Shown piece by piece: positions 3,061-7,551 of a stretch of 37,592 nucleotides of DNA; position 1 is the stretch's first letter; every line of letters begins with the position of its first letter. The stretch comes from Burkholderiales bacterium (GTDB lineage Bacteria > Pseudomonadota > Gammaproteobacteria > Burkholderiales > Usitatibacteraceae). Made by a program: the position numbers and the translations under genes. The stretch spans positions 1-37,592 of the forward strand of contig JANXWW010000122.1 in NCBI GenBank assembly GCA_025350945.1. Direction: 5' to 3'. The notes under the pieces were generated by a model. The model had not been told where the DNA came from. It saw only the letters and a list, made by a program, of their open reading frames with translations, and did not search any database.

Positions 3061-4698
3061 ATGGCAGGTCATGGCAGCAAGCCCCTTCGCGGGCTGGAGA
3101 GCACACAACAATCGAGCATTCAAACGGGAAAATTTGGGCGCATGTTTCGCTGGCTTGAGCCTGCACAAATCGGGCGGACGCCGCAGGAGCAGATCGCCAT
3201 TACCGACCTTTGCAAGGGCCTTGCGAAGGCGATGATTGGCAACGAATTTAATACCAAAGTGGACGTCGGCGGCAGCCCGACACCAGACTCGGACATCAAC
3301 ACGCCCGAACCAAACGATGAAAACCCGACCATACCAGCGGGCTACACCTACTTTGGACAGTTTATTGATCACGATATTACGTTCGATCCCGCATCGTCAT
3401 TGCAACAACAGAATGACCCTGACGCGCTGGTTGATTTCCGCACGCCACGACTTGATCTGGACTGCATTTATGGCCGTGGGCCTGCGGACCAGCCCTACCT
3501 GTACGACAAATCCAATCGCAGCAAATTTGTGCTCGGCGCTGATCGTGGCGTGAATGGCATGAAGCGTCCCGATCTGCAACGCACCGCAGATTTTACCGCG
3601 CTCATTGGCGACAAGCGCAACGACGAAAACAAAATCGTGGCGCAGATTCAGGCGCTGTTTCTAAAATTTCACAACAAGGTTTTTGACGATTTGAAAGCAC
3701 GTCCTGATGCATCGGATGATGATCTGGTGTTTGCTGAAGCGCAGCGGATTGTGCGATGGACTTATCAATGGCTAGTGCTGCACGATTACTTGCCGAAAAT
3801 CTGCGACGCCAAAGTGATTGAATCGATCATGCCAAAGAAAGATAAAGGCGAGCGTAATCCGAACTTCAAGTTCTATCGCCCGCATGACGGCGACGCTTAT
3901 ATTCCGGTTGAATTTTCGGTTGCTGCATTTCGCTTTGCCCATTCAATGGTTCGGCCCAGCTATGCGCTCAACGATATTGTCCTCACCACGCCGACCGCAA
4001 AATTTAAGTCGGCCAAGGGAAAGGTCACCCCTTTTGCGCGCGTGCCGATTTTTGTTCGGCAAACAAGTGCCGTCACCGATGCAATGAATGGATTTGGCGA
4101 GCCGCTGCCACCGGCGTGGGGAATCGACTGGACTTTCTTTTTTGGCGAACCAAAAAAAATTCCAGCAGGCCAGAAACAAATCCCGCAGTTAAGCTATCGC
4201 ATTGATGCGACCCTGGTTGATCCGTTGGGCAACCTGCCCGAATTTGCGCGGGCTGGTATTCCCTCACCTTTCGAGTCACTCGCCTTCCGCAATCTGATGC
4301 GCGGCGTGAGCATGGGCCTGCCATCGGGGCAGCGCGTGGCCGAGATGATGAACGTGTCCAAGATACTCAGCGATGCACAGCTATGGCATTCAAAAGCGGA
4401 CGGTGATGTCATTGGCAAATGGGATGAAGGCAAAGCGCTGCTTGCGGGCAACAAGCGCTGGCTGCAGGGCTGTGCGCCACTGTGGTTCTATATTCTCAAA
4501 GAAGCCGAGATATTGAACAAAGGGCATCACTTGGGCGAAGTCGGCAGCAGAGTTGTGGGCGAAACCATGATTGGTCTTGTATGGTACGACCATTTCTCCT
4601 ACTTGTTCCAAAAACCGCAATGGACGCCGAAGGACGAAGGCATCGCGGGATTGACCGACAACCTTGATATGCTGGCATTAACAAAATACGTTGGCTGA
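3061..4698 (+). CDS. Animal-type heme peroxidase family protein (bacterial)
   Basis: 545 aa with GYTYFGQFIDHDITFDP (distal His), AFRFAHSMVRPSY (proximal His), RNDENKIVAQIQALFLKFHNKV (Arg/Glu catalytic region), NLMRGVSMGLPSGQ. Confidence 0.9.
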   Translation: MAGHGSKPLRGLESTQQSSIQTGKFGRMFRWLEPAQIGRTPQEQIAITDLCKGLAKAMIGNEFNTKVDVGGSPTPDSDINTPEPNDENPTIPAGYTYFGQFIDHDITFDPASSLQQQNDPDALVDFRTPRLDLDCIYGRGPADQPYLYDKSNRSKFVLGADRGVNGMKRPDLQRTADFTALIGDKRNDENKIVAQIQALFLKFHNKVFDDLKARPDASDDDLVFAEAQRIVRWTYQWLVLHDYLPKICDAKVIESIMPKKDKGERNPNFKFYRPHDGDAYIPVEFSVAAFRFAHSMVRPSYALNDIVLTTPTAKFKSAKGKVTPFARVPIFVRQTSAVTDAMNGFGEPLPPAWGIDWTFFFGEPKKIPAGQKQIPQLSYRIDATLVDPLGNLPEFARAGIPSPFESLAFRNLMRGVSMGLPSGQRVAEMMNVSKILSDAQLWHSKADGDVIGKWDEGKALLAGNKRWLQGCAPLWFYILKEAEILNKGHHLGEVGSRVVGETMIGLVWYDHFSYLFQKPQWTPKDEGIAGLTDNLDMLALTKYVG

Positions 4699-4712
4699 TA
4701 ATGCATCGCCGT

Positions 4713-4746
4713 AAAAATAGCGCCGATTGTTCGGTGCTATTTTTTT
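4713..4746 (+). terminator. Rho-independent terminator after the peroxidase gene
   Basis: AAAAATAGCGCCGA-TTGT-TCGGTGCTATTTTTTT; 14-bp stem with one G-U pair, followed by a T-tract. Confidence 0.85.
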
Positions 4747-4757
4747 GCGCTCTAAAA

Positions 4758-4786
4758 TTGCAACTGCATCGCAAACTGCGTTAAAC
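4758..4786 (+). promoter_or_regulatory. Predicted sigma70-type promoter for the chrB-chrA operon
   Basis: TTGCAA - 17 bp - TTAAAC; implied start near 4791-4795, directly before the first leader hairpin. Confidence 0.5.
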
Positions 4787-4792
4787 TTTAAT

Positions 4793-4898
4793 CACGGGAA
4801 TTGCAAGCTCCCGCTGCTTAGCCCGCGATCAAAAAATCGCCAAGGAGCAAGACGGTGTCCCGTCCAAGCGCTGCTTAATCTCCTCCAAAGGACAGCCC
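4793..4898 (+). promoter_or_regulatory. Structured 5' leader RNA of the rhodanese-chrB gene; candidate chrB-a/chrB-b class RNA motif
   Basis: Stems CGGGA/TCCCG (4795-4799/4809-4813), GCGAT/ATCGC (4825-4829/4836-4840), GACGG/CCGTC (4851-4855/4860-4864), AAGC/GCTT (4866-4869/4873-4876), GGAG/CTCC (4844-4847/4880-4883); TCCTCC adjacent to the AAAGGA Shine-Dalgarno. Confidence 0.55.
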
Positions 4899-5738
4899 AT
4901 GGACACCGCATCTACATTCATATCTGCTATTCAACTTTCTAAAACACTTGGCTCGGCAGCAGCGCCGCTATTGCTGGACGTGCGCGCCCAGCCTGCCTTT
5001 CAAGCCGATTCACGCATGCTGGCGAGCGCCACGTGGCGCGATCCGGCGACTGTTGCCGACTGGCGAAAATATTTGCCGGTGCATCGCGATATCGTTGTGT
5101 ATTGCGTACGCGGTCATGAGGTCAGCAAAAATACATGCGCCGCTTTACGTGAGATTGGCTTGCATGCTTATTCGCTGGAAGGCGGCGCAGAAGCGTGGAA
5201 ATCTGCCGGGTTGCCAACAATTGAAAAGCATGCTGAATTGCGCGTTCCTGCCGGTGTAAACGCGCCAACGAAATGGGTCACACGTGAACGCCCAAAGATT
5301 GATCGCATCGCGTGCCCTTGGCTGATTCGGCGATTTATTGATCCGACGGCAGAATTTATTTATGTGCCAACGAAAGACGTTTTATCATTCGCCGAAACAC
5401 AAAACGCGATTGCCTATGATGTGCCGAATGTGCAATTTACACATCGGGCTGATGCATGCAGTTTCGATGCGCTGATCGCAGATTTCAAATTGAATGATCC
5501 GGTATTGGCTGATCTGGCGGTGATTGTGCGCGGAGCCGATGTTGGCAACCCTGCTGGGCAGCCAGACCTTACACCGCAATCGGCGGGCCTACTGGCAGTC
5601 TCGCTTGGCTTGTCGGAACTTTATCGCAATGATCACGAGATGCTTGCTCACGGCATGGTGATATATGACGCACTCTACGCATGGCTCAAAAGCGCACGTG
5701 CGGAAATTCACAACGCTGACTTGTTTAAAAAATCATGA
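4899..5738 (+). CDS. chrB: Rhodanese domain fused to ChrB C-terminal (chromate resistance) domain
   Basis: N-terminal rhodanese with IVVYCVRGHEVS active-site loop; C-terminal KWVTRERPKIDRIACPWLIRRFIDPTAEFIYVP typical of ChrB C-terminal domains. Confidence 0.88.
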   Translation: MDTASTFISAIQLSKTLGSAAAPLLLDVRAQPAFQADSRMLASATWRDPATVADWRKYLPVHRDIVVYCVRGHEVSKNTCAALREIGLHAYSLEGGAEAWKSAGLPTIEKHAELRVPAGVNAPTKWVTRERPKIDRIACPWLIRRFIDPTAEFIYVPTKDVLSFAETQNAIAYDVPNVQFTHRADACSFDALIADFKLNDPVLADLAVIVRGADVGNPAGQPDLTPQSAGLLAVSLGLSELYRNDHEMLAHGMVIYDALYAWLKSARAEIHNADLFKKS

Positions 5739-7078: not shown

Positions 7079-7551
7079 TTCGCGACGTAATCGCCGGATT
7101 TCCCGCCTTTTTTCTCAAGCAGACGAATATCCGAAATCGTCATGCCGCGATCAACGGCTTTGACCATATCGTAAATCGTCAACAGCCCTGCTGAAACAGC
7201 CGTCAATGCTTCCATTTCAACCCCTGTTCTGCCAATCGTTTCAACAACCGCACGGCATTCAACCGAAGACGCAGATTCATCAAGAATAAATTCCACCGCA
7301 ACTTTGGTGATCATCAAAGGATGCGTAAGCGGAATCAAATCCGGTGTGCGTTTGGCGCCTTGAATCGCGGCAATGCGCGCGATGCCCAGCACGTCGCCTT
7401 TTTTGGCTCCTCCGCTTTTGATTAAATCGAAAGTTGCCGCCAGCATGCGAATATGTCCGCTTGCGGTGGCTACACGCTGCGTTTCGCGTTTTTCGCCGAC
7501 ATCGACCATGTGAGCTTGGCCGCTTTCGTCGAAATGGTTTAATGAAGACAT
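7075..7551 (-). CDS. moaC: Cyclic pyranopterin monophosphate synthase MoaC
   Basis: [19 protein letters not shown]...[30 protein letters not shown]...[23 protein letters not shown]. Confidence 0.96.

Follow-up and report, generated by a model that had tools for sequence, protein, structure and literature searches.

The leader of the chromate operon in the window (the whole 37,592-nucleotide stretch of DNA analysed) is a genuine member of the known orphan RNA family chrB-b, and comparison with its relatives leads us to favor, with a probability of roughly 0.6, its being a translational ON switch for that operon. In the folded state, hairpin 1 (P1), hairpin 2 (P2) and a pseudoknot between the P1 loop and the tail would leave the ribosome-binding site and the start codon free. 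In the blocked state, P2 would open and its strand CGGUGUCC would pair with GGACACCG at the start codon, so that initiation is blocked (Table 1). Some bases belong to both P2 and the start-codon helix, which would exclude each other, and in many relatives a short Shine-Dalgarno hairpin, starting at or inside the pseudoknot tail, would add to the block. A ligand stabilizing the folded aptamer would turn the resistance genes on. We infer that the leader passes between the two states in vivo, that the direction is ON and that a small ligand drives the change; this ligand would be chromate or a compound linked to chromate stress, with chromate as the first guess. Sequence and folding energies together support mutually exclusive aptamer and ribosome-site-blocking folds as the predicted behavior of these leaders in Burkholderiales.

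Table 1. Positions in the window of the chrB-b leader, its predicted elements and the genes behind it
Feature	Position	Strand	Basis or remark
Probable promoter TTGCAA-17-TTAAAC	4758..4786	+	boxes 4758-4763 and 4781-4786; position agrees with homologous leaders
chrB-b RNA (RF03086)	4794..4874	+	covariance-model match, whole model
Hairpin P1	4795..4813	+	4795-4799 with 4809-4813, loop 4800-4808; Rfam consensus structure; kept in relatives
Pseudoknot 5' strand, in P1 loop, A4805 bulged	4803..4808	+	loop-tail complementarity over 74 leaders
Variable linker hairpin GCGAU/AUCGC	4825..4840	+	4825-4829 with 4836-4840; insertion relative to the Rfam model; length and sequence vary between relatives
Hairpin P2	4851..4864	+	4851-4855 with 4860-4864, loop 4856-4859; Rfam consensus structure
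Putative anti-start strand CGGUGUCC, inside P2	4853..4860	+	8 bp to 4901-4908; matched in relatives
Conserved CAAG after P2	4865..4868	+	columns invariant or at least 90% conserved in MAFFT alignment
Pseudoknot 3' strand GCUGC	4870..4874	+	loop-tail complementarity
UCC-rich stretch and Shine-Dalgarno AAAGGA (4887-4892), weak local hairpin	4881..4892	+	Shine-Dalgarno hairpins enriched family-wide
Start codon and codons 2-3 (AUG GAC ACC G)	4899..4908	+	4901-4908 is the predicted pairing partner of P2
Rhodanese + ChrB_C protein, 279 aa	4899..5738	+	PF00581, PF09828
ChrA chromate transporter, 447 aa	5735..7078	+	PF02417

Family membership rests on a covariance match to RF03086 over the full 49-position model (positions 1-49) with a score of 43.0 bits (curated cut-off 36.5; E 2e-7), as the sequence-only reading had supposed; this is the sole match with E ≤ 0.001 in the window's genome. 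Its alignment contains the CCAAG and CUGC conserved 3' of the second hairpin, and it ends 24 nt before the start of the rhodanese-ChrB gene, which the next gene, chrA, overlaps by 4 nt. The other family proposed beforehand, chrB-a (RF03078), fell away: the window is absent from its matches up to E 10, and the window's genome has 0 matches. Relative to the RF03086 model, the window has 33 nt between the two conserved hairpins, a linker that contains a hairpin of its own, and the P2/start-codon pairing lies outside the 49 positions. RF03086 is present in 17 of 28 genomes of the window's family and 49 of 398 of its order, and in 3 of 369 and 20 of 379 genomes of the class and phylum samples, respectively. 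As an annotation, this new member is ordinary. We know of no ligand, mechanism or function for chrB-b, and the source of the chrB motif is reportedly a 2017 paper. In the literature searched, no paper names either Rfam accession (RF03086, RF03078) or a chromate riboswitch, and chrB RNAs appear in a single mention and in no dedicated study.

An ordinary leader that matches the family by chance and has no regulatory role would fit the folding energy, which lies within the range of shuffled sequences (minimum free energy of 4788-4900, z = -1.53). Since 15 of 200 shuffles fold equally well, we dropped thermodynamic stability as evidence for the leader. What sets the leader beyond chance is the RF03086 match, together with the finding that many relatives carry this element ahead of homologous genes. 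A score above the curated cut-off, the expected place before the expected gene, recurrence in related genomes, and the permutation tests on the pseudoknot and on hairpin 2 and the start make a chance match hardly credible.

The strongest alternative pairing in the leader, between CGGUGUCC of hairpin 2 and GGACACCG at the start codon, was absent from the sequence-only reading. We followed it through a comparison set of about 75 leaders, for which 75 matches were extracted, weak or unusable ones dropped, and five leaders of further loci added, of which two are in L026 and three had gone unreported as RF03086 hits, one of these three in the window's own genus (G018, L144). Scanning the genome contigs by protein yielded just 6 loci. 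Two RF03086 matches at 27-28 bits (G077, G137) were set aside as likely false, since neither a gene nor a pairing there was plausible. For 52 unique pairs, the energy of hairpin 2 duplexed with the start window was -12.8 kcal/mol versus -10.0 for permuted partners (0 of 20000), in a test that ignores shared ancestry, as do all our leader permutations, and that includes a few starts set by hand beforehand from homology or reading frame. The signal persisted when the GGUGUC class was left out (-11.2 vs -9.3 kcal/mol, 0/20000). The complementarity peaks sharply at the start codon, with -14.8 at +3 and about -5 to -9 elsewhere.

Several hairpin versions occur, each with its own gene start. In the commonest class, hairpin 2 is GACGGUGUCCCGUC and the gene start AUGGACACCG, with CGGUGUCC the exact complement of GGACACCG. 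Hairpins of the form GACGC..GCGUCC are mostly followed by the start AUGGACGC, the hairpin GACGGUUUGCCGUCC of L026 by AUGGACGGCAA, and GAUGC..GCAUCC in G365 by AUGAAUGC. The start GGACACC is found behind 33 of 35 leaders with a GGUGUC hairpin and 0 of 40 without one; likewise, the GCGUCC arm is found in 11 of 13 leaders with a GGACGC start versus 5 of 62 otherwise. Codon choice shows the same association. Asp at the start is encoded by GAC in 59 of 61 cases (63% deeper in the same genes), and Thr by ACC in 33 of 34 members of the GGUGUC class versus 1 of 5 outside it (34% deeper in the same genes). A single genome, G122, contains both hairpin types before two different genes, each with its matched start. 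By these comparisons, hairpin 2 in Burkholderiales is complementary to the first three codons, the start codon included.

The same match could in principle be a DNA inverted repeat (CGGTGTCC ... GGACACCG) bound by a transcription factor rather than an RNA helix, and in the main class it is indeed perfect and near-invariant. However, a DNA-binding protein would hold the sequence, whereas here the sequence varies from leader to leader with complementarity preserved, and one of the two halves is always part of a conserved RNA hairpin. We therefore consider a DNA site very unlikely and continue with the RNA helix of the ON switch.

An N-terminus of the form MD(T/A/E/G) is common to unrelated proteins behind chrB-b, with M-D-T or M-D-A on rhodanese-ChrB, ChrA, an MFS protein, Cj0069-family proteins and others. 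ChrA carries the MD start when the RNA is directly upstream, but not as a later operon gene or without the RNA; a simple rule set these starts, and three loci (L026, L077, L094) were read by hand as RNA-linked AUGGA starts. Because unrelated proteins have the same N-terminus, the MD(T/A) start, judged from the compared sequences, belongs to the RNA. In four loci (L082, L042, L038, L055), chrB is shortened or internally deleted before chrA, and the RNA-adjacent MDT or MDA start is kept.

Start-codon pairing is not universal in chrB-b. In 22 leaders from outside the class, called alphaproteobacterial from gene content and named plasmids, we found no pairing between hairpin 2 and the start (-8.7 observed vs -8.8 permuted), and it is therefore a feature of the lineage and not of the whole family. 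The exception is the alphaproteobacterial L026, with its MDG starts. In the alphaproteobacterial leaders the tail seems to block the Shine-Dalgarno site instead, for example AAGCUC with GAGCUU (by eye), with marginal statistics (423/20000). Leaders before SOD-rhodanese genes also have a start codon unpaired with hairpin 2. These two groups of leaders count against the ON switch. By eye, a decoy upstream of the Shine-Dalgarno sequence seems to replace the start codon as the partner in the SOD-rhodanese leaders: L062 and L087 carry GGCUUGGGCACCGUC, complementary to GACGGU and CCAAGCC.

The lineage restriction also bears on whether the RNA and the first codons simply travel together as a cassette, in which case the hairpin/start match would reflect descent and any switch would act through the pseudoknot and the Shine-Dalgarno hairpin only. 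Such co-inheritance would account for unrelated genes with the same start, for chrB genes that are short ORFs keeping only that start, for the absent pairing in alphaproteobacteria, and for a Shine-Dalgarno hairpin enriched by itself. It sits poorly with at least six different complementary hairpin/start versions, with a Thr codon that follows the hairpin, with a pairing signal that persists without the main class, and with the two matched types in G122. We judge it unlikely, and continue to prefer a switch in which P2 and the start codon would pair.

The aptamer also includes the pseudoknot, which by comparison of leaders belongs to chrB-b. Because the MAFFT leader alignment misplaces the 5' arm of hairpin 1, the pair tests were run with anchored scripts. 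Over 74 unique leaders, loop-tail complementarity averaged -8.21 kcal/mol versus -6.47 for permuted partners, a value reached in 0 of 20000 permutations. Most leaders carry the loop/tail version GCAG(A/G)/(U/C)CUGC; others are UACAGG/CCUGUA (G056), ACCAG/CUGGU (G190), GGCAC/GUGCC (G014) and AACGC/GCGUU (G018). A CaCoFold analysis lists "chrB RNA", with the chrB family unstated, among the cases where covariation reveals a pseudoknot (PMC7657543). In the window, the contact would consist of G4803-C4874, C4804-G4873, A4806-U4872, G4807-C4871 and C4808-G4870, and at 5 bp it is weak (-4.6), which is a point against the ON switch. The sequence-only reading had proposed a pseudoknot between AAGC (4805-4808) and GCTT (4873-4876). 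The loop-tail contact itself was borne out, with its register shifted by a few bases: AAGC/GCUU would make the same contact in a different register, whereas the register that fits the family better joins 4803-4804 and 4806-4808 to 4870-4874. The motifs named in that reading all lie at the positions it gave, including the promoter boxes with their 17-nt spacer and the arms CGGGA/TCCCG, GCGAT/ATCGC and GACGG/CCGTC. One proposed helix, GGAG (4844-4847) with CTCC (4880-4883), is unconserved, the nearest relative (L011) having AAAAAGC there.

We then compared the predicted energies of the two states, computed without the pseudoknot or any ligand. The window folds freely at -36.6 kcal/mol and at -36.3 with the helix 4853-4860/4901-4908, two near-equal values for folds that both tie up the start. 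With hairpins 1 and 2 forced and the pseudoknot unscored it reaches -31.6, so that start-blocked folds are 5 kcal/mol better. In the ensembles of 75 leaders, 7.0 hairpin 2/start pairs are expected; swapping the start regions lowers this to 4.7 and shuffling them to 1.5. Opening the ribosome site would cost 13.9 kcal/mol with a leader's own aptamer and 11.7 with a foreign one (0/20000). In the window itself there is no gain (9.45 vs 9.28), since GGUGUCC is shared by most of the foreign aptamers; this too counts against the ON switch.

The Shine-Dalgarno hairpin beside the pseudoknot tail, proposed beforehand as pairing of UCCUCC with GGA (4890-4892), shows family-wide enrichment (6.18 vs 4.11, 0/200 shuffles). 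In the window alone it is weak, with an opening cost of 3.5 versus 2.3 kcal/mol in shuffles, 12% of which are as good. Control of the operon at the ribosome-binding site, as first proposed, is supported as probable.

The promoter suggested upstream of the leader is poor by consensus, and a consensus promoter scan gave no match at TTGCAA/TTAAAC. Its -10 position agrees with that of homologous leaders, 42 of 71 of which have their best -10-like hexamer 14-17 nt upstream of the hairpin 1 GGG; in the window, TTAAAC lies 15 nt upstream of it. From this spacing, the transcript probably starts at hairpin 1, about 4793.

Most recognizable genes that follow chrB-b correspond to components of known chromate operons, such as that of C. 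metallidurans pMOL28 (ChrB, ChrA, SOD, ChrE rhodanese, MFS), and they also include TauE-type exporters and Cj0069-family proteins. The ChrB_C domain was not found in 9 of the 14 chrB-b genomes examined, each with a completeness of 95% or more, which makes ChrB unlikely as an obligatory RNA-binding partner or sensor. Small hairpin-pseudoknot leaders can be protein sites, and the family takes its name from its place upstream of chrB; hence the leader might bind ChrB or another RNA-binding protein rather than a small ligand, with the alternative folds as the readout. The genomes lacking ChrB_C speak against ChrB only and would allow another protein, and the widely differing downstream genes also argue against a protein regulator, which we regard as improbable. 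The RNA may also be an OFF switch, or may act without a ligand.

The chrB-a family (RF03078) resembles chrB-b in preceding the same sulfurtransferase-ChrB and chrA operons, in alphaproteobacterial plasmids. By eye, its loop and tail are also complementary and GCGUCC pairs with GGACGC at the ribosome site, the pseudoknot strand and the Shine-Dalgarno helix being analogously exclusive. It differs in its 80-position model, which reaches the start codon, and in its target, the Shine-Dalgarno sequence and not the start codon. In three intergenic regions (G1031:C1:3346278-3346531, G956:C140:212865-213189, G970:C1:4269871-4270179), chrB-a and chrB-b stand divergently. The shared operons, the analogous exclusion and these divergent pairs suggest that both families answer one common signal. 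A region matching both models (G1066:C2:245882-245965) is possibly an intermediate between them.

Returning to the ON switch, chrB-b resembles known translational ON riboswitches with pseudoknot aptamers in that a compact pseudoknot aptamer immediately precedes the ribosome-binding site, with a blocking helix that excludes the aptamer fold. It differs in that the blocking strand would be part of the aptamer hairpin and its target the start and first codons, with a ligand that is putative. A bolder version, which we put forward tentatively and think rather doubtful, is that chrB-b, with chrB-a, is a riboswitch sensing chromate or another toxic oxyanion directly, that translation in Burkholderiales is gated by pairing between an aptamer-hairpin strand and the start codon, and that the RNA dictates the first 2-3 residues of unrelated proteins. 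The comparison gives chrB-b a concrete, testable expression platform and accounts for the MDT/MDA starts of unrelated proteins behind it. It would also narrow the ligand search to chromate-stress compounds, and break-and-restore mutations become informative in any laboratory Burkholderiales strain with the element.

Further chrB-b copies were seen near chromate genes. The window's genome has a second, decayed one (L165 3018-3078, minus strand, G000:C171), which at 27.3 bits scores below the cut-off. It precedes a rhodanese-ChrB pseudogene that is interrupted by an in-frame stop and seems to be joined to chrA; the start AUGGACACCGUU there still matches the hairpin GACGGUGUCC of this RNA. In G128:C67 (L054), three chrB-b RNAs lie in a row within 6 kb (1517-1570, 5671-5724, 7204-7258), preceding ChrA, a broken ORF and rhodanese-ChrB. 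Near a ChrB gene in L138, a near-perfect 26-bp inverted repeat (1398-1458), matched below cut-off by two microRNA models, is probably a terminator or repeat element. Closely upstream of the window's chromate operon lie a TusA-like sulfurtransferase (2242-2691, PF01206) and an animal-type haem peroxidase (3061-4698, PF03098). The peroxidase gene is followed at 4712-4750 by a hairpin, AAAAATAGCGCC...GGTGCTATTTTTTT, that a simple scan missed; with its flanking A and T tracts, it is likely a bidirectional terminator.
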